From positions 1-64,000 of the forward strand of contig JAILDV010000046.1 of the NCBI GenBank assembly GCA_024688885.1: a stretch of DNA of 64,000 nucleotides, given 5' to 3'. The stretch comes from Bacteroidaceae bacterium (GTDB lineage: Bacteria; Bacteroidota; Bacteroidia; Bacteroidales; Bacteroidaceae). Of the stretch, positions 34,793 through 47,291 are shown piece by piece. Numbering within the stretch: position 1 is the first letter of the stretch; every line of letters starts with the position of its first letter. Below the pieces are notes generated by a model. It was given only the letters and a program-made list of their open reading frames with translations, ran no database searches and was not told the DNA's origin. A program made the translations under genes and the position numbers.

Positions 34793-36820
34793 CTATTGTA
34801 GACGGAAAGTAACCGGGAGGGTGTACTTCAACCGAACCACCTGACCACGTTGCTTGGCGGGTGTCCAGTTGGGCATTCCGCGAAGGACTCTGAGGGCTTC
34901 TATGTTCAGCGCACCATAGGCTTCCTGTGGAATATCGTTTCCTTCAGCTGTTGTGCCCTGTGCATTGACAGCGATGCCATCTGATACGGGTTTCGCGTCC
35001 TTGACGACCTTGAAGTTGCTGAGTGAACCGTCTTTCTCGATGACGAATTGTACGAGGATACGTCCCTGAACACCATGCTCTGCGGAAATCTTAGGATAGC
35101 GGATGTTCTGGGCAAGGTACTGCATGAGGGCTGCCGGACCGCCGGGATACTGCGCTGGCTCTTCAACGACTTCGAAGATGGGATCATCGTGGATGGCGTT
35201 CTGGATGGTAGGTGGTTCAACATTCCATGTGGCAAGTTTTTCCTGATCATCTCCTACTGCTTTGTAGTATTCCCTGCCGTTCACAAGGATTTTCTGAACC
35301 TTCTTGCCGTTGATGGAGTAAGAGCCGTCCTCGTTCTTCTGAACGCCTGGGAGCCTATCCACAAATGAGGATTTCACCTTGATCTCAATCACTCCATTCT
35401 TGCCTTTCTCGCCATAGACGGCTGTGGCGGCTCCATCCTTGAGGACGGTGATGCTCTCAACATCATCTTCCTTAATGTTAAGGGCTTTGGAGATGGCTTC
35501 ATTGTCGAGCGTCCTGATGTCGGCAGGAAGATTGATTTCGACACCATTGACGATCACGAGTGGGTTGTCGTCATCAGGAGCTGTTGATGCTTCTTGGGTG
35601 TGGATGACGATGATGCCGTGCTTTTCCTTGTAGTTGTACTTTGCCGTTCCTTTCTCGGTCTTCAGCATTTCAAACTTGGAATTGGCGAGCAACGTCTTGT
35701 AGTTTCTCAGTTCGGCTTCAGTGGCTTGTCGCCCATCGATGAACACATATTCAGCGGTGCACTCGAAGAAGCCGTCGGCAGGCTTTCCTTCATGAGTGAA
35801 GCCAGTGATTCTGCCATACTGGTCAACGACGGGATGGATGGCGAAAGGCGTTTCGTCAACACTTTCCACGGTCGTGAGCACATTCTCTGTCACCTCGTTG
35901 ATGGTTGGCACGTTGGTGGTTTCCAATGTCTTCACCATATCTTCCACGGGGTCGGTCTCAATAGGTGTGGCGAAGGTATTGATCGTCAATGCCGCCACGG
36001 GGATGGCGCAAAGTGCTTTGAGCATGAGCCATCGGTTAGAAGGTTTCTGGTACATCATAATAATACGTTTTTTGAGTGAGCCGTGATTCAGATTGTTGGT
36101 GAAAGGCTGCAGTCGATTCCCGACCACCTTCATCACGAGAAGTTGTTGATATGATTTTGCATCGATGCCTTGATTGATAACAGCCTGGTCTGCCTCATAT
36201 TCATGCACCGCCTTGAGGTCGCGACTGAGGAACCAGATGAAAGGGTTGAACCACATGAGGGTCTTCATGCCTTGGAGCAGCAGGAGGTCGTAGGTGTGTC
36301 CCAAGCGGATATGCTCCTGCTCGTGGGTGAGGATATACTGACGACTACTCTCATAGTCCTTCACACTCATAACGATGTAGCGGAAGATGCTGAAGGGAGG
36401 TACGTCGTTGTTGTGCAGAATGACGGTGTTGCCTTGTGAGTCGGTGTGTCGCACGCCGCTGCTCATGAAGCGGATGAGTGAGGTGGCTTGCACCAATGTG
36501 AGGATGAGTATGATGGTGACTCCAGCCAAGTAGATCCACGTGAGTGCTTGAATCCACGTGATGCCTTGTGCTTGCTGTGCTGTGACGATAATGGGGGTCG
36601 TGTCGTGCTCAATGTAGTTCTGCACGATGTACACCTCTTCGTTCAGGGTAGTGGGGTGGGAGGTGGTGAAGTGGAACATCGGCATGACGATCGACACGAG
36701 CATGATGCCCACCAGCATGCAACGGTTGAACCGATGGAAGGTTTCTTTGCTTAGAAAGATAAAGAAACAACTGTATAGGAGTGCCAGCGTGATGGCGGCT
36801 TTGATAACGTACAACATCAT
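34793..36820 (-). CDS. BlaR1-like M56 metallopeptidase with plug-like and C-terminal TonB domains
   Basis: LTHEQEHIRLGHTYD (HExxH-type); ITVLKDGAATAVYGEKGKNGVIEIKVK; YPGGPAALMQYLAQNIRYP…GRILVQFVIEKDG. Confidence 0.88.
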   Translation of the reverse strand: MMLYVIKAAITLALLYSCFFIFLSKETFHRFNRCMLVGIMLVSIVMPMFHFTTSHPTTLNEEVYIVQNYIEHDTTPIIVTAQQAQGITWIQALTWIYLAGVTIILILTLVQATSLIRFMSSGVRHTDSQGNTVILHNNDVPPFSIFRYIVMSVKDYESSRQYILTHEQEHIRLGHTYDLLLLQGMKTLMWFNPFIWFLSRDLKAVHEYEADQAVINQGIDAKSYQQLLVMKVVGNRLQPFTNNLNHGSLKKRIIMMYQKPSNRWLMLKALCAIPVAALTINTFATPIETDPVEDMVKTLETTNVPTINEVTENVLTTVESVDETPFAIHPVVDQYGRITGFTHEGKPADGFFECTAEYVFIDGRQATEAELRNYKTLLANSKFEMLKTEKGTAKYNYKEKHGIIVIHTQEASTAPDDDNPLVIVNGVEINLPADIRTLDNEAISKALNIKEDDVESITVLKDGAATAVYGEKGKNGVIEIKVKSSFVDRLPGVQKNEDGSYSINGKKVQKILVNGREYYKAVGDDQEKLATWNVEPPTIQNAIHDDPIFEVVEEPAQYPGGPAALMQYLAQNIRYPKISAEHGVQGRILVQFVIEKDGSLSNFKVVKDAKPVSDGIAVNAQGTTAEGNDIPQEAYGALNIEALRVLRGMPNWTPAKQRGQVVRLKYTLPVTFRLQ

Positions 36821-36850
36821 GGGATTGACAATTTAACGATTTACAATGTA

Positions 36851-37237
36851 CTATTTGCTTTTAATCATTTCCATGATTTCCTGCAAATCCTTTTCCGACA
36901 CTTCTTCCTGTTTGGCGAAGAAGGAGAGCATGGATTTGAGAGAGTTTCCGAAGAAGGTGCTCTTCACTTCTTTCATCACGCGGTTGGTGTATGCCTCCCT
37001 GCTGATGGTGGGTGTGAACACGAAGGTCTTGCCGCCTCCTTCCTGCTTACGCGACTGGATGAAGCCTTTGTTGGTTAATATCTTCAGGAATGTGGCGATG
37101 GTGGAGTAGGCGGGTTTGGGTTCAGGGTACTCTTCGATGATTTCGTGGGTGGTCATCCCTTCCGCTTTCTCCCAAAGCACATTCATGATTTCCATCTCGG
37201 CTTTGGTCAGTTGTCTTTCTTCCTCGTTTCGTTTCAT
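36851..37237 (-). CDS. BlaI/MecI/CopY-family transcriptional repressor
   Basis: LTKAEMEIMNVLWEKAEGMTTHEI; YSTIATFLKILTNKGF. Confidence 0.93.
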   Translation of the reverse strand: MKRNEEERQLTKAEMEIMNVLWEKAEGMTTHEIIEEYPEPKPAYSTIATFLKILTNKGFIQSRKQEGGGKTFVFTPTISREAYTNRVMKEVKSTFFGNSLKSMLSFFAKQEEVSEKDLQEIMEMIKSK

Positions 37238-38545: not shown

Positions 38546-40591
38546 TTACTTCAGGAATTCTTTCATTGATTCGTGATAGATGTTGCCATAGCCTGCTACA
38601 TTATAGAGTGTCACGTGGCTACCTACCGTGTTGATGAAGAGACGGTAGTAGAGGTCGCGCAGTGGGATTTCAGGTGAATTGATGATGCAGTCGTGCAAGG
38701 TGGCAGTGTAACGGTTGGTCATCCATACGTGGAGGTCGGTGTTGTAGATGTCTGCCTTCGATGTCTCGTAAGGATTGGCTGCTGTGATGGCGAGGATGCC
38801 AGGGATTCCTTCTGTAGCACTCATCACACTACCTGAATAGCAAGCTTCAGTGAGGCAGAGGAGTTTGCGGTATTTTTGTCCCTGATGCATTGCCTCGAAG
38901 GTTTCTTTGGCGAGTTGGGTGGTGAACCCCTCTTCTCGTTCGAGCCAAACCATTTGTCCGGGAACACCGTGACCGCTCCAGAAGACAAGCACGTTATCAT
39001 CTTTGTCAGCTTGAATGACAGCTGGCAATTTATCACTTTTTTCTCCACAGAGGATGTGCTTGATGTCGGAAGGCTCCAACTGGCTTGTATGGTAGTCAAT
39101 GTTCACATTCTGGTAGAGGTTATCACCATTCGGGCGCACCTGCACGATTCCCTTTTGGGGGTTGCTGGCATTGTTGGCGATGTCATCCTCTATGATAAGC
39201 ACGATATGGTCATCGTCATAACCCTGTTTGCGCAGGATTTGATACATCTGCAGCACATCTGCCTGATGGCGGTAATTGCTCCATCCATTGCTTCCAGCTA
39301 CCAACAATGCCCACTTTTGGTCAAGGGCAGGGTAGGTCATACCCGAATCATCCTCATCTTTGAATTCCTGCATGAGCTGCGTTTTCCAGTTCCATGCACC
39401 TAAAGTCGCATCGGTACGGTGAGAACCCGTAGAGGAGATGTAGTCGAGGATGATGTAACGTCCTTGATAGAGCAGATAATGATAATATGTGGTGGAAAGC
39501 ACGGTGGTGTAAACATTGCGGTCAAATGCAATAGGACCACAAGCACCGGCAATGTGTGCATCGGCAACTATCTTCAATGAATTGTTCAGCGACTCATTGC
39601 CCGAAGCGGAGAGTTGGTTAATGAGTGCCCAATTGAGCATGACCACTGCATCGTAGATTTGTGCAGCACCTAAGGTGGGCTGCTGACCGTATTTGATTTC
39701 GTAGAGAATGTCGAAGCCAGACTCTGGTGCTGCTCCGAAGGTGATGCCCTCGATGCCTTCTGCTTTGGCACCAAACCGGTCAAGTACATCCACTCCATAG
39801 GCGGTGTCACTGTAAAGTCTGCGCGATTGGCTGTTGGCACGCTTGAACGCTCCTTCGATGGTTTCGATTTCTTTCGACACACAAATCACCACGTCTGCAT
39901 TCTCTTCAGCTGCCTTCTGGCTTTCTTCTGCAAGTGTCTCGGGACGGAAATCATGGATGCCTTTCACCTCCAACCCCAATTCTTCTGCTTGGAAACCGAA
40001 CCACTCCACGAAGGTTCTGCCATAGAGGGTTTCACGATTGGCAAGCAAAGACACAGTCTTGGCACCATAATAGAGGGCGCGGCTGAGTAGAATTTCACAC
40101 TGTGTGATGTCACTTTCCACCATTGCCCAAAGGGAACCTGTGGATGCATAAGCGCGTGTCAGTTCTTCGGCAGTGGCAATGGTGAGGAAAGGTTTGTGGG
40201 CAGGGCAGAGCGAAGCAGCGAGTGTGGGTGCGTCAGCGCTGTATTTGCCGCCTATCACAGCCACAATGTCGTCACGTTGAGCCAATTTTTCAGCCAGTTC
40301 CTCTATGTTCTCCTCTTCTTCGTCATACCACTCAAATTCCATCTTCACCATCTGTTTCTCCTTCTTGTTGGGCGTGTTGAGGATGTTCTGTTTTTGTACT
40401 TCATTCACGCCATTGACAGCCATTTCGATGGTTTGTTCCCAATGTTTCTGCTGCTCATGGTTCATTGGAAGCACCACAGCCACTTTACGCACCTGCCAAT
40501 CAATGTGCTCGTCAGATGCAACGTCGTTTTTGTCGGTGCATGCCATCAGCAGCAATGCCACCAACCCTATCAGCCATTTATTTCGCTCCAT
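38546..40591 (-). CDS. surface lipoprotein: periplasmic-binding-protein-like domain fused to C13 legumain-like protease
   Basis: Lipobox LLMAC; WALLVAGSNGWSNYRHQADVLQMYQIL; catalytic-type VFWSGHG and LTEACYSGS. Confidence 0.85.
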   Translation of the reverse strand: MERNKWLIGLVALLLMACTDKNDVASDEHIDWQVRKVAVVLPMNHEQQKHWEQTIEMAVNGVNEVQKQNILNTPNKKEKQMVKMEFEWYDEEEENIEELAEKLAQRDDIVAVIGGKYSADAPTLAASLCPAHKPFLTIATAEELTRAYASTGSLWAMVESDITQCEILLSRALYYGAKTVSLLANRETLYGRTFVEWFGFQAEELGLEVKGIHDFRPETLAEESQKAAEENADVVICVSKEIETIEGAFKRANSQSRRLYSDTAYGVDVLDRFGAKAEGIEGITFGAAPESGFDILYEIKYGQQPTLGAAQIYDAVVMLNWALINQLSASGNESLNNSLKIVADAHIAGACGPIAFDRNVYTTVLSTTYYHYLLYQGRYIILDYISSTGSHRTDATLGAWNWKTQLMQEFKDEDDSGMTYPALDQKWALLVAGSNGWSNYRHQADVLQMYQILRKQGYDDDHIVLIIEDDIANNASNPQKGIVQVRPNGDNLYQNVNIDYHTSQLEPSDIKHILCGEKSDKLPAVIQADKDDNVLVFWSGHGVPGQMVWLEREEGFTTQLAKETFEAMHQGQKYRKLLCLTEACYSGSVMSATEGIPGILAITAANPYETSKADIYNTDLHVWMTNRYTATLHDCIINSPEIPLRDLYYRLFINTVGSHVTLYNVAGYGNIYHESMKEFLK

Positions 40592-41648
40592 ATTCTACCT
40601 CCTTCTTGATGGCTTCCTGCCGGTTGGCTTCCACACCCGCTTTCAGCTGTGGGTAGCGGTCAGCAATCTGCCAATTGATGTAGCCACTCTCCAACCCGTA
40701 GTGCTGATAGCGAGGCAAATCTTTTTGGTTATACCAATTGGTGAGATGGTCATAGAGTACGAGGTCAATACGTTTCACCATCGAACCGACAATCAGCGTT
40801 GAATAGGCACTTTGGTCTGTATCCATTCCCGCTGTGTAGATGCCACAATCGGGGTTTTCACGCAAGTAGCGGTAGGCTCCCATGTTAGAGCCTCCTGCTA
40901 CTGCGTAAATAAAATCGTATTGACCATCGTAGTCATACATTTTCTTATACAATTCTGTAGGCATGCCATATCCTGTCCAATCGTCGGCAATTGCACCGAC
41001 AACAGCCACAGAGCCGTCTTCTGCCTTTCCGAAACCTTCCACAAAACCGTCTCGGGCATCGTAGGTGGTGGTGTTCTGTCCGTTGCCGAGTAAAACGAGC
41101 GGATGTTTGCAGCCCAATTCCCGTGCTGTCTTACCAGCCAGCCACGAGGCACCATACATGCTGATGCCAAATGTCCTGATCTGTTCCGTTTCGTCTCCGC
41201 TGTCTTCAGCTTCGAAAGCCAACACACAGCGATTGATGTTCATCTCGGCATTAGCAAACACCTGTCGGGCAATGTCAACATAGTCGGAAGACGCAAGCAC
41301 CAACAGACGACGAGGAACAGTACCTTTATCGTCAATGGGCTTGTCAATATTCTCCCACCACGACTTGCAGGCAGACTCCACATCTTCCAAACTGGTGGGG
41401 GTGATGAATCGGATGGTCATGCCCTGACTGTGCTCATTCTCCATCAGTTTGATGCCACGCAGAATCTGGTCGTTGTAACTGCCGTCACCTAATCCGTCAA
41501 TCGAGAACAGCACAAGCACTTCAGCTTGCACAGTTGGTGTCTCTGTGTTGGATGCGTCATCGTCTTTATTGCAGGAGGTAACACAGTGACCTATCGTCAG
41601 CAGCATGACTGCTGCCAGCAGCTTGGTGAGGATATAGCTTGTCTTCAT
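40578..41648 (-). CDS. BMP/PnrA-type substrate-binding lipoprotein
   Basis: Lipobox VTSC followed by NKDDD; FSIDGLGDGSYNDQILRGI; GMDTDQSAYSTLIVGSMVKRID; 14-bp overlap with the next gene. Confidence 0.75.
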   Translation of the reverse strand: MKTSYILTKLLAAVMLLTIGHCVTSCNKDDDASNTETPTVQAEVLVLFSIDGLGDGSYNDQILRGIKLMENEHSQGMTIRFITPTSLEDVESACKSWWENIDKPIDDKGTVPRRLLVLASSDYVDIARQVFANAEMNINRCVLAFEAEDSGDETEQIRTFGISMYGASWLAGKTARELGCKHPLVLLGNGQNTTTYDARDGFVEGFGKAEDGSVAVVGAIADDWTGYGMPTELYKKMYDYDGQYDFIYAVAGGSNMGAYRYLRENPDCGIYTAGMDTDQSAYSTLIVGSMVKRIDLVLYDHLTNWYNQKDLPRYQHYGLESGYINWQIADRYPQLKAGVEANRQEAIKKEVEYGAK

Positions 41649-41654
41649 GCTTTA

Positions 41655-42851
41655 TTATAATCTTACTCCGAATGCTGCATTTGCGAACCAGTCATTCAGT
41701 CGTCCGCTATTACCTTTGTGATGATAACCGAAGTTGTAGAACTGACCGTTCAAGTTCACGAAGTAGCGGCTCCAACTATAGGTGAGCGAAAGGCGTGCAT
41801 TGAAATTCAGTCTGATGCGGTTGTTGTGTGCATCAGTACCCATTGCTTGAATACGGTAATCCTCAGGTTCCAATTCGTCTGCATCATGTTCCTCTTCATC
41901 TATTGCCAACTGACGCAAATTTGAGTCAAAGTTATATGCCTTCACTCGGTTGTAAAGCGTGACCATTGGCATTGCCATTGCGCTGATGAGCCAACCTTTG
42001 GCAGGCACATAGTTGTAGCCGTATCCGGCTCCTACATTCGCTTCCCACTGCTTGATGCGTCCTACATCATTCATGAATAGAATCATGTCTGCATTAGTGT
42101 TGTCATCGAAGCGGAAGTCCGAATAGTAGAACATGGCACCAGCCAGCCAGGAACCAGCCGACCGTTTCTGAATCACACTTTGGCGATAGGCAGCTTTATA
42201 GGAAAAACGTCGTTTGTTGAAGATGTAGTAACCGTCCAGCACCATCGTCTTGGCTTTGATGGGGGAGGCGAGAATCCATTTGTGGGTTTGGCTCTCCCAT
42301 TCAGGGTCACCACCATCTTCAGGATAAAAATTTCCCTCTAATTTCACTTGAGGCTCTTTCGTCTTAAACTCGTGTAGGCGAAAGTGCACGCAGTACCACG
42401 TGCCCGAACTACTCAACGAAAAGTCTCTACCTTTGTCACCTGCAACGTTGAAGGCATAGTGTGCTGCAAGTCCCTTGTATCCTACACGTACACCTACAGA
42501 GGTGGATACATCGGTGCGGATACGCGGCTGGCATTTCACATCACCTTCGGCACCGAAGTTTGCACCATCGATAGTCGATTTCATCTGAAGGTCGGATTGG
42601 CTGAGGTAGCTGTCCAAACTGATGCGCCAGACTTGTTTTGGGTTCTGGATATAGAGCGTATCTACATTCTTTACCCACTTTTTATCAACAAAATCTTTGG
42701 CCTTGTTGAAGAGCTTGTTCTTGTTTGTACTCTCAACAGGCTGCGTTTGCGCCTCTTGGCGAGTGTTCCCCGCGTCCACATCCACGTCCAGTTGGGCATA
42801 CCCCATCAGGGATGTCAGTGTCAGACAACTGTAAATGAGTAATTTTTTCAT
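41655..42851 (-). CDS. DUF4421-like outer-membrane protein
   Basis: Signal peptide; aromatic-rich alternating beta strands, C-terminal NAAFGVRL. Confidence 0.7.
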   Translation of the reverse strand: MKKLLIYSCLTLTSLMGYAQLDVDVDAGNTRQEAQTQPVESTNKNKLFNKAKDFVDKKWVKNVDTLYIQNPKQVWRISLDSYLSQSDLQMKSTIDGANFGAEGDVKCQPRIRTDVSTSVGVRVGYKGLAAHYAFNVAGDKGRDFSLSSSGTWYCVHFRLHEFKTKEPQVKLEGNFYPEDGGDPEWESQTHKWILASPIKAKTMVLDGYYIFNKRRFSYKAAYRQSVIQKRSAGSWLAGAMFYYSDFRFDDNTNADMILFMNDVGRIKQWEANVGAGYGYNYVPAKGWLISAMAMPMVTLYNRVKAYNFDSNLRQLAIDEEEHDADELEPEDYRIQAMGTDAHNNRIRLNFNARLSLTYSWSRYFVNLNGQFYNFGYHHKGNSGRLNDWFANAAFGVRL

Positions 42852-42900: not shown

Positions 42901-43449
42901 TTATTGTGGCTTTTCTATGTTAGTTTTGCCACAACTTGGACAAACTTTTGCCGCTTTATTAGGGAGTTTGAAAGAGGCGCTGCAATCGTTACATACGTAA
43001 GTGGACAGAATCTTGATTTTGTTCTCGCCTTCCATATAGTTGGGCTCGACCACCTGCAGTGTCATTTGAGGAATGCCCGTCACTGCAAATTTCACGTTGT
43101 AGTAAACACCGGCTACGTCGCCTTTGTCCACATGCACTGTTCCACGTGCGTCGGGCAACGTATAAGTGTAAGTGGCTGCGTTGCCATCATAGTTCTTTGC
43201 ATATTGGCCAACTAACTTCTGAGCATCAGTCTGAGTCTCAATGCCAATCTCGTAGCAGCCCTGCTCGTTGAGTTCACCGAACACAACAGCGCCGTCCTCA
43301 TCAATCAGTCGGGTCTTCAATTCCTTTACAGCCTTGTCGCCCAGTTCCTTACTGTTGTTGTCATCGTCATCGCTGCTGCATGAGATGAACGCACTTGTTG
43401 CACATACCATTAAGGTTGCCAAAGAAAGAAAAAATTTGTTTGTTTTCAT
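42901..43449 (-). CDS. lipoprotein with C-terminal zinc-ribbon-like CxxC…CxxC
   Basis: SAFISC-SSDDDD lipobox/LES-like tail; YVCNDCSASF…VCPSCGKTN; start placed at MKTNKFF. Confidence 0.75.
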   Translation of the reverse strand: MKTNKFFLSLATLMVCATSAFISCSSDDDDNNSKELGDKAVKELKTRLIDEDGAVVFGELNEQGCYEIGIETQTDAQKLVGQYAKNYDGNAATYTYTLPDARGTVHVDKGDVAGVYYNVKFAVTGIPQMTLQVVEPNYMEGENKIKILSTYVCNDCSASFKLPNKAAKVCPSCGKTNIEKPQ

Positions 43450-43504: not shown

Positions 43505-44506
43505 TTAAAATTGCTCAAGGATTCTGATTCGCTCTGCAGTGCTCGGATGGGTGCTGAAAAGCGATTGTAGTTTGTCGAAAAAACTCTGTGTCGTTTTCTT
43601 TGGATGAATGATGTAGAGTTGGGCAATGTCTTCACGTTGGATGTGCCCAAGTCCAGGATAAGCAGAAATCTTTCGGAGGGCAGAAGCAAGGGCAAGAGGG
43701 TTGCGTGTCAGTTCTGCACCACCTGCATCTGCCATGAATTCACGTTTGCGTGAAATGGCAAAACGTGTGAGGAGTGTGAGGAAATAAGCAATGGCAGCAC
43801 AGACGATGGCTGCTATAATGACCACGATGATGGCAACACCACCACCTCCCTTACCATTGGAACGGCGTGAAGAGCCTCCACTCCAAAGGAAAACACGAAG
43901 TACACCACGAGTCAGGACAGTCAGCACAGTGGAGAGGATGCCCACAAACACGATGCTGACAATAAGTACACGGGTATCACGATTGCGGATATGAGTCAAT
44001 TCATGTGCAATCACCCCTTCTAGTTCTGCATCATCCAGATATTCGATGATGCCTCGAGTCAAGGTCACTGTGTAACTCTTCTGATTGATGCCCGAGGCAA
44101 AGGCATTGAGTTGAGGATCCTCAATGATGTTCACTTTTGGCATTGGCATACCGCAACTCATGCAGAGATTCTCCACTAGGTTATACACACGTGGATTCTC
44201 CTTGCGCTCGAGTGGCTTTGCTCCTGTAGCATGCTGAATCATCTGGGCATTGAACGTGTAGGCAATAGCGAGCCAGATAGCCACAATGATAACTGCCCAG
44301 GGTGCCCACCCGAGCCACATCTCATTGATGATGCTGGTGTCGAGGTAGAACTGTTCATTGCCGTACATGTCGTAGGTGCTCTGCACACCAAAAATGCAGC
44401 AGAACACCCACAACATGCCGAGGATGATGCATGGGAACATCAGGAGCAACATCATGCTGTTCCAGTTGTTCCTTACAATTTGAGATTGTATGCCGACGTA
44501 TTGCAT
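43505..44506 (-). CDS. M48-family metallopeptidase (HtpX-like)
   Basis: GVIAHELTHIRNRD; NAFASGINQKSYTVTLTRGI; REFMADAGGAELT. Confidence 0.93.
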   Translation of the reverse strand: MQYVGIQSQIVRNNWNSMMLLLMFPCIILGMLWVFCCIFGVQSTYDMYGNEQFYLDTSIINEMWLGWAPWAVIIVAIWLAIAYTFNAQMIQHATGAKPLERKENPRVYNLVENLCMSCGMPMPKVNIIEDPQLNAFASGINQKSYTVTLTRGIIEYLDDAELEGVIAHELTHIRNRDTRVLIVSIVFVGILSTVLTVLTRGVLRVFLWSGGSSRRSNGKGGGGVAIIVVIIAAIVCAAIAYFLTLLTRFAISRKREFMADAGGAELTRNPLALASALRKISAYPGLGHIQREDIAQLYIIHPKKTTQSFFDKLQSLFSTHPSTAERIRILEQF

Positions 44507-44515
44507 TCGGGGCTT

Positions 44516-45079
44516 TTAGAACTTGATTTCAGGTGCCTTCTCCACTTCTGCACGCTGAGAAGCCTCGATTTCGTACATGGCTTCCTTGTGGAATCCGAAC
44601 ATGCCAGCAAAGATGTTGCTTGGGAAACTCTGCACAGCGTTGTTCAGTTCACGGGTAGCAGAGTTGAAGAAGCGACGAACAGCAGCCAACTTGTTCTCGA
44701 TGTCTGCCAATTCGCCTTGCAACTGCATGAAGTTCTGGTTTGCCTTCAGGTCAGGATAAGCCTCCACCTGCACCTTCAAGCCAGCCAGAGCAGAAGTCAA
44801 CTGCTGGTCAGCCTTGATCTTGTCATCGATGCTTGATGCATTCACACCCGCTGTACGTGCAGCAGTGATGTTCTCCAGAAGTTCCTTCTCATGAGTGGCA
44901 TAGCCTTTCACCGTAGCCACCAACTGGGGCACAAGGTCAAAACGCTGCTTCAACTGCACATCGATGTCAGCGAAAGCATTCTCACGATTGTTACGCAGTC
45001 TCACAAGGTTGTTGTACATGCCGATGATGGCAAGGATAATCACAACAACAACCGCAATAATGATAATAGTTGTAACCAT
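44516..45079 (-). CDS. lemA: LemA family protein
   Basis: YNNLVRLRNNRENAFADIDVQLKQRFDLVPQLVATVKGYA. Confidence 0.95.
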   Translation of the reverse strand: MVTTIIIIAVVVVIILAIIGMYNNLVRLRNNRENAFADIDVQLKQRFDLVPQLVATVKGYATHEKELLENITAARTAGVNASSIDDKIKADQQLTSALAGLKVQVEAYPDLKANQNFMQLQGELADIENKLAAVRRFFNSATRELNNAVQSFPSNIFAGMFGFHKEAMYEIEASQRAEVEKAPEIKF

Positions 45080-45434: not shown

Positions 45435-47291
45435 TCATTTTATCTTAATACCATAGAATTTCCAACTACTATCCTCGGACTCTATTAAATCTATTGAAGT
45501 CGTAGAGGCAGGAATAGGTGGAAAATATAATGTGAAGGTTATATCATTCGTAAAGGTAGTTCTTTCAGGTGCAATTTTTATCCCTTCTGCCTTTGTCATG
45601 GTATATGTAATCCCATCTACCATTATATAGGTTTTTCCATCTATATTACACCACTGATTCTGACCGATGTATGGGATTTCGAGGGTTACGGATGTGTAAT
45701 CATTTCCCGTATAGACGCTTTTAATTTTCACTCTTTCTGCTGTAGTACTTCTTACTGTAGGAGAATTAACCGTAGTGACCGAAGGTGTGGAATTCCCAGA
45801 AGAAGATAAACTTTCATCACTTGTATTTGAACATTTTATCAGATAGACAAAGTTCTTTATTTGTTTCACCTGTTCTTTTAATTCCTTTCCATTAATAGTG
45901 GAAATTGTAGGAAGAATGGCGGAAGACGCCACACTCTCTACCAAGTTTTTTAGGTAGGACGTTTTTATAGCATAATTAGCATTCTCTGCATCTGCATGTT
46001 TTGCACACACAATGCCTACTAAATTACCTTTCATGTCAAACATAGGGCCACCACTATTACCAGGCTGCACTGGCACAGAAATCTGATAAGTGGTAACATT
46101 TCCTTCATATCCACTTCGCGAACTTACAATTCCATTTGTTAACTTAACTTCTTCACCCATCGTTTGAGTTAACGGATAACCTAAGACATACACATTTTCA
46201 CCAACATCTACCATTGAAGATTTGAAGGCATATGGGGGATTGCCAAAGCCAGAAAAATCTTTATCCGAAATTTTAAGTAATGACAAATCACTTACTTTGT
46301 CTACACCAACAATGGTTGCTTTATACCCTTTTGAGAAATCTCCTTTTACACCAAAAATCTCTATCGTTTTAGCCTCTCCTGCAACATGATAGTTTGTGAC
46401 AACATAACCATCTTTCAAAGCAAAACCACTTCCAGACCATTGCGTTATACTCTCTGTCGTCGCATTTGAAGTATTTCTACCCTCCATTCTTATATATTGA
46501 GATTCCCCATCCTCTTCTTTTATGGTCATAACTCCATCATCAAAAGCAACAGTAATATTCTTTTGTGTTCGATTACTAATAATTCTTCTCCCTTTGAATA
46601 TATTGGGATATGCCGTGGGGGTTAATGTAGCCCAAACACTCATGATGTCCCAACCTACAAGTTTCTCTCTATTAAGAAGAGCATAATGACCCTCACTTTC
46701 CACAAACGCCAATTTCCAAGGGTCATCAAGACCCTCATATTTTCCTGCATAAATACTTTTTGCACCTTCAATAATCTCTTGTAAAATCTCATTTGCTTCT
46801 TTCTCATCTTCTGGATATAGGCATTCTTCTATTTGAATACCATACCAATAGGGATCAGATGTACTTTCACCCATAATAGATATTTCTCGTACTCCTACTG
46901 GAATCGGAGGGAAAAACACACGCATCATCCAACGTACAGGACGACCTCCAAAATCGGTAGAATAATCGTATTTTACATCAAACACTGATTCTTCATATCG
47001 CCCTTGATTATTTATTAAGCGTTCAACACCTATTGCCTTCTCCTTCATAATTTCCCCACTATCGGGGTCTGTATATTGAAGAAAAGTGTTCGATTTGATA
47101 CGTATCCAAGATTTCCCTCCTGACAAGATATAATCTTGGAAATCTATATTTACTGCAGTGCATTCACTATTAACGGATACAGCATATATGCTAATAGCAT
47201 TCTTTTGTTGCTTAACATAAGGAGTTTCCGAGATTTGAGAATACAAATTTACAGATATACAAACCATTAATAGGAATAAAATCTTTCTCAT
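45435..47291 (-). CDS. secreted trypsin-like (S1C) serine protease
   Basis: VVTNYHVAG, SDLSLLKI, QPGNSGGPMFD triad motifs. Confidence 0.85.
   Translation of the reverse strand: MRKILFLLMVCISVNLYSQISETPYVKQQKNAISIYAVSVNSECTAVNIDFQDYILSGGKSWIRIKSNTFLQYTDPDSGEIMKEKAIGVERLINNQGRYEESVFDVKYDYSTDFGGRPVRWMMRVFFPPIPVGVREISIMGESTSDPYWYGIQIEECLYPEDEKEANEILQEIIEGAKSIYAGKYEGLDDPWKLAFVESEGHYALLNREKLVGWDIMSVWATLTPTAYPNIFKGRRIISNRTQKNITVAFDDGVMTIKEEDGESQYIRMEGRNTSNATTESITQWSGSGFALKDGYVVTNYHVAGEAKTIEIFGVKGDFSKGYKATIVGVDKVSDLSLLKISDKDFSGFGNPPYAFKSSMVDVGENVYVLGYPLTQTMGEEVKLTNGIVSSRSGYEGNVTTYQISVPVQPGNSGGPMFDMKGNLVGIVCAKHADAENANYAIKTSYLKNLVESVASSAILPTISTINGKELKEQVKQIKNFVYLIKCSNTSDESLSSSGNSTPSVTTVNSPTVRSTTAERVKIKSVYTGNDYTSVTLEIPYIGQNQWCNIDGKTYIMVDGITYTMTKAEGIKIAPERTTFTNDITFTLYFPPIPASTTSIDLIESEDSSWKFYGIKIK

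Follow-up and report, generated by a model that had tools for sequence, protein, structure and literature searches.

The window, meaning the whole 64,000-nucleotide stretch of DNA analysed here, comes from a rumen Bacteroidales bacterium and carries a four-gene cassette on its minus strand. One of these genes (38546..40591) encodes a lipoprotein of 681 residues in which a type-I periplasmic-binding-protein (PBP) domain is fused to a legumain-type protease of peptidase family C13; upstream of it lie, in this order, genes for a Bmp-like lipoprotein, a DUF4421 protein and a small Cys4 lipoprotein. The motifs quoted in the first-pass annotation all fall within this single open frame, and it is the only C13 gene in the genome.

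The fusion protein begins with a signal peptide and lipobox (40538..40591, minus strand; LLMAC, with the lipidated Cys18 followed by TDKND), and Cys18 is invariant in an alignment of 16 sequences. Acidic residues at positions +2 to +6 after the lipidated cysteine are common among the aligned relatives; in the window protein, where the lipobox is clear, this stretch is moderate and weaker than in its neighbours; it hints that the lipoprotein may be exposed at the cell surface. The PBP domain occupies residues 30-395 (39407..40504, minus strand), within which Pfam Peripla_BP_6 matches residues 83-359 (E 2.3e-10; 41.1 bits against a cut-off of 31.7). The protease domain follows at residues 426-661 (38609..39316, minus strand), with a Peptidase_C13 match at E 1.7e-53 that spans profile positions 1-240 of 258 and scores 182 bits against a curated cut-off of 22.8. 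Both domains therefore lie above the Pfam gathering scores. The best matches among solved structures are mammalian legumains (E about 1e-38; 1.3e-38 for the C13 domain), followed by plant AEPs (1e-31) and GPI8 (1e-22 to 1e-25). Pfam gave no Peptidase_C11 match in the protein, and matches to LytB and caspase/EACC1 were set aside as weak or below their cut-offs.

An AlphaFold2 model of the fusion, built from 16 relatives, reached a pLDDT of 86.7 and a pTM of 0.81. When compared by Foldseek, its C-terminal half matches human legumain (7FQH) with a TMt of 0.91, an rmsd of 2.1 Å and 32% identity. The structure prediction that had been proposed as a check on the protease thus returned a caspase-like legumain fold with a correctly placed dyad, and nothing in it spoke against the original assignment. 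The catalytic residues are His541 (codon 38969..38971, minus strand; legumain His148) and Cys584 (codon 38840..38842, minus strand; legumain Cys189), each conserved in 120 of 121 relatives with one gap. These 121 alignment rows are relatives from the fetched neighbourhoods and include near-duplicates, as some loci came from two collections; 104 are distinct. With its C13 domain and a His-Cys dyad in a caspase-like fold, the fusion is a member of peptidase family C13, as the first-pass annotation had claimed when it described a legumain-like protease.

Around the dyad, the S1 pocket is kept only in part. The arginine of this pocket, Arg441 (legumain Arg44), is present in all 121 relatives; the equivalent of legumain His45 is kept in 110, with Phe in 9, and at the Glu187 position 105 have Glu and 15 have Asp. 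The position of legumain Asp231 is Asn in the window protein and in 111 of the 121 relatives, with Asp in 9. As at least 120 of the 121 relatives retain the dyad and the S1 arginine, the protease is probably active. With one S1 acid lost, the balance between cleavage at Asn and at Asp may be altered, and the P1 preference of the enzyme therefore cannot be carried over from legumain. The Asn/Asp specificity suggested in the first-pass annotation is a hypothesis.

The comparison with mammalian and plant legumain (MEROPS C13) accordingly shows shared and divergent traits. A full C13 domain, the dyad and equivalents of Arg44, His45 and Glu187 are common to both. Unlike legumain, the fusion is a bacterial lipoprotein with an N-terminal PBP domain; its relatives extend a median of 1 residue beyond the protease domain and the window protein ends there, so the inhibitory, death-fold-like (LSAM) C-terminal prodomain is absent. 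Because both this prodomain and Asp231 are missing, the fusion does not strictly qualify as a legumain orthologue. Family C13 also covers GPI8 and the plant peptide asparaginyl ligases, and one might ask whether the fusion is a transpeptidase of the GPI8 or butelase kind, linking surface proteins through Asn to an acceptor. Given a GPI8 match (1e-22 to 1e-25) clearly weaker than that to legumain (1e-38), we regard this as very improbable.

The binding domain proposed in the first-pass annotation is likewise borne out. The N-terminal binding-protein part is carried by all 121 aligned relatives, joined to the protease by a linker of 25-34 residues, and for that reason the architecture is not a product of misassembly. 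Compared as a profile with the PDB, the N-terminal half is closest to branched-chain amino-acid binding proteins (4GNR, E 1.4e-10; 3TD9, 7e-9), followed by the ligand domain of T1R3, a class C GPCR (2e-6), all of the homologous type-I fold; unlike in these proteins, the binding domain here is joined to a protease. Its hydroxyl positions are kept, Ser118 in 108 and Thr/Ser140 in 117 of the 121 relatives. That the domain binds an amino acid is a guess from homology, and the ligand control suggested in the first-pass annotation is a hypothesis; we infer that the domain may have replaced the prodomain as regulator of the protease. The constant fusion, the short fixed linker, the absence of any other prodomain and the retained hydroxyls would also suit a surface sensor or a shedding switch gated by ligand, in which ligand binding triggers the cleavage of surface lipoproteins generally, in the manner of fragipain, which releases many surface proteins of B. 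fragilis (PMC9308784). We consider so general a role quite unlikely, as the close association of the fusion with specific partner genes argues for dedicated substrates.

The closest of these partners is the Bmp/PnrA-like lipoprotein (356 residues; 40578..41648, minus strand; Pfam Bmp, E 6e-12), whose gene shares its last 14 bp with the start of the fusion gene. In 96 of the 104 distinct relatives the gene immediately upstream of the fusion is Bmp-like, with a median overlap of 17 bp. The next gene encodes a DUF4421 protein with a signal peptide (41655..42851, minus strand; E 1.5e-42), which is shared with the cassettes of near relatives and is probably an outer-membrane beta-barrel. The last member is a small lipoprotein with a C-terminal Cys4 motif (42901..43449, minus strand), assigned to the ZnR/cl2 superfamily and homologous, with an hhalign probability of 98%, to the cl2 group of lipoproteins found at the same position in other loci. 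The window's clade carries this small Cys4 lipoprotein, mostly together with DUF4421. It is the fastest-diverging member of the cassette, with a mean identity of 61% among nine near relatives against 84% for the C13 domain; such divergence is compatible with a substrate, immunity factor or surface target, and relaxed constraint would produce it too. One relative (L087) has 97-99% identity in the small lipoprotein and DUF4421, compared with 87% for Bmp and the binding domain, and this difference between gene blocks suggests that the cassette is exchanged in blocks.

A more prosaic role in nutrient scavenging deserves consideration at this point. Under this explanation the protease would trim proteins from the diet or the host at Asn/Asp, and amino acids and nucleosides would be captured by the PBP and Bmp lipoproteins. 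The kinship of the PBP domain with branched-chain amino-acid binding proteins and of Bmp with PnrA, the gut or rumen origin of most relatives and the DUF4421 envelope protein in the cassette are consistent with it. However, no ABC permease is evident among the open reading frames at 30-50 kb, part of which were profiled, or among the recurrent neighbour families. Scavenging also leaves the strict pairing and the variable, toxin-like partners unexplained, and we judge it decidedly unlikely.

Several other genes were recorded on the minus strand around the cassette. LemA and an M48 (HtpX-like) peptidase (43505-45079) lie directly upstream of it in the window and in several near relatives. They do not adjoin it in some relatives (L090 and L091), and the four-gene cassette therefore appears separable from them. 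Further along, a trypsin-like (Trypsin_2) serine protease of 618 residues (45438-47291) lies where the GC content falls to 35-43%, compared with about 50%; no counterpart was found among the compared loci, and the gene was perhaps recently acquired. On the other side, at 34793-37237, a BlaI-like regulator adjoins an M56 (BlaR1) peptidase that also contains TonB C-terminal and TonB-receptor Plug-like segments.

Comparison of 40 same-family neighbourhoods and 80 named loci revealed a modular lipoprotein operon built around the Bmp-fusion pair. Neither the near-constant Bmp-like partner nor this operon, nor the association with MACPF genes in relatives, features in the first-pass annotation. Small Cys4 (ZnR) and cl2 lipoproteins, taken together by BLAST clustering, occur in 53 of 102 loci. 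The kinship of cl2 and ZnR rests on this clustering and on the first profile comparison, the iterated profiles having been discarded when they drifted into unrelated lipoprotein signal peptides. The remaining partners vary between loci and comprise MACPF lipoproteins, cl7 lipoproteins or DUF4421. The cl7 proteins are lipoproteins of 657-805 residues found in 13 related loci, mostly paired with cl2 (e.g., L115:4833-7064), for which no Pfam or PDB profile relatives were found. Their candidacy as another type of pore-former was dropped after the model (pLDDT 61.5, pTM 0.55) gave no meaningful fold match. In Bacteroides cellulosilyticus, the lipoprotein run that holds the C13 fusion also includes a C11 clostripain-family lipoprotein (L163:1325-3352), and the small lipoproteins adjoining it share part of the C11 sequence.

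Most fusion relatives belong to gut or rumen bacteria, and the cassette is patchy within the window's genus. A phylum-wide sample, which held few gut Bacteroidales, yielded no strong C13 outside the family; a larger collection added relatives labelled with other Bacteroidales names, as well as some in Treponema and Fibrobacter metagenome-assembled genomes (MAGs). A plasmid search found no fusion gene on plasmids. On two Treponema MAG contigs (L173 and L174), the fusion belongs to a cl2-Bmp-C13 operon, and a MACPF-labelled gene lies upstream, with Pfam support for MACPF in L174 only (4e-11). If the Treponema bins are correct, binning errors being possible in MAGs, these contigs suggest transfer of the operon across phyla.

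MACPF lipoproteins, often with BACON domains according to Pfam, adjoin the Bmp-fusion pair in about a quarter of the loci, including those of cultured Paraprevotella and the two Treponema MAGs; the labels come from a cluster profile, and the MACPF motif is missing in 3 of the 25 labelled loci. They often form arrays of three genes, of about 480, 600-670 and 790 residues, and in Paraprevotella xylaniphila the order is MACPF-MACPF-cl2-Bmp-fusion, with gaps of at most 12 bp or overlaps. Of the 51 MACPF genes in 301 family genomes, 32 have a strong C13 gene at most 15 kb away. Seventeen genomes hold both, and the two are co-located in 15 of these, the exceptions being assemblies of about 150-160 contigs. 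A genome-level Fisher test gives p of about 1e-8, ignoring shared ancestry, and the co-location does partly reflect such ancestry. On a tree of the 104 fusions, the motif-supported MACPF link changes at least 10 times.

At the same time, no MACPF was found in the whole genome from which the window comes, and 27 of the 44 family genomes with a strong C13 have no detected MACPF. Because the window's genome and most relatives, at least nearby, are without MACPF, this link is not the whole function of the family; it informs the family and cannot alone explain the window copy. The many MACPF-free genomes could instead point to a resistance protease, a surface enzyme that destroys or disarms the pore-forming toxins of competitors (or of the cell itself) and persists as an orphan defence where no MACPF is encoded. 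The patchy occurrence of the cassette and its fast-evolving Cys4 lipoprotein agree with such a role, and surface lipoprotein immunity genes such as BcdI can sit in toxin operons (PMC11169675). BcdI, the described immunity lipoprotein of this kind, is nevertheless not reported there as a protease, and the binding domain and the constant Bmp partner are left unexplained, which makes resistance an unlikely account.

Precedents for a protease acting on partner lipoproteins come from family C11. C11 surface lipoprotein proteases of Bacteroidales, which also belong to clan CD, activate BcpT (PMC9308784) and CDCL pore-formers (PMC11169675). For MACPF proteins, a precedent is perforin-2, which mammalian legumain cuts (PMC7614779). 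Like fragipain and DpnB, the fusion is a Bacteroidales lipoprotein that carries a clan CD cysteine protease, and its relatives are likewise linked to pore-forming toxin genes. Unlike these C11 enzymes, it belongs to C13, is not predicted to cut after Arg/Lys, is encoded with likely partners and is joined to a binding domain. The loci of BSAP (MACPF) and CDCL pore-formers also encode surface-type lipoproteins, and MACPF genes occur in the operons of many fusion relatives; the window and its genome differ from those loci in having no MACPF. No mention of a C13 protease was found in the consulted passages of the BSAP and CDCL papers, and a literature search confined to open-licence papers found nothing on C13 proteases of Bacteroidota. 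The fusion architecture and its operon appear undescribed in the open-licence literature searched; databases may already list the PBP-C13 domain combination, unaccompanied by a study.

Building on the observed fold, dyad conservation, lipobox, conserved operon and MACPF co-location in relatives, we tentatively favour a role in which a surface C13 protease and its Bmp partner mature, release or inactivate the lipoproteins of their operon by limited cuts; its surface location, substrates, gating and biological effect are what we infer. The enzyme would be a lipid-anchored, probably surface-exposed and catalytically competent clan CD cysteine protease, in which the N-terminal amino-acid-type binding domain stands in for the C-terminal inhibitory prodomain of legumain. 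It would act together with the Bmp-like lipoprotein from the overlapping upstream gene, and the pair would make limited cuts in lipoproteins of the same operon. The candidate substrates in relatives are MACPF pore-formers or cl2 proteins, and in the window the Cys4 lipoprotein with its fast evolution. Cleavage may mature, release or inactivate these partners, in parallel with the action of C11 lipoprotein proteases on Bacteroidales toxins, and binding of a ligand or partner by the PBP domain may position or switch the protease.

A bolder version, which we hold to be somewhat unlikely, is a bacterial legumain-perforin system. In this case, a dedicated lipoprotein protease gated by its binding domain would mature multi-subunit complexes of MACPF lipoproteins on Bacteroidales cells, and the window's lineage would have put the protease-Bmp core to use with different surface partners. 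Such a system would be the counterpart of the cut that mammalian legumain makes in perforin-2.

The protease gene that recurs in MACPF lipoprotein operons is a direct candidate for the activation of BSAPs; proteolytic activation of BSAP-1 was raised as a possibility and left unsettled in a 2025 BSAP paper (PMC12853789). The binding domain in place of the prodomain may represent a natural small-ligand switch for a caspase-fold protease. The fusion family would also extend the biology of legumain to bacteria.
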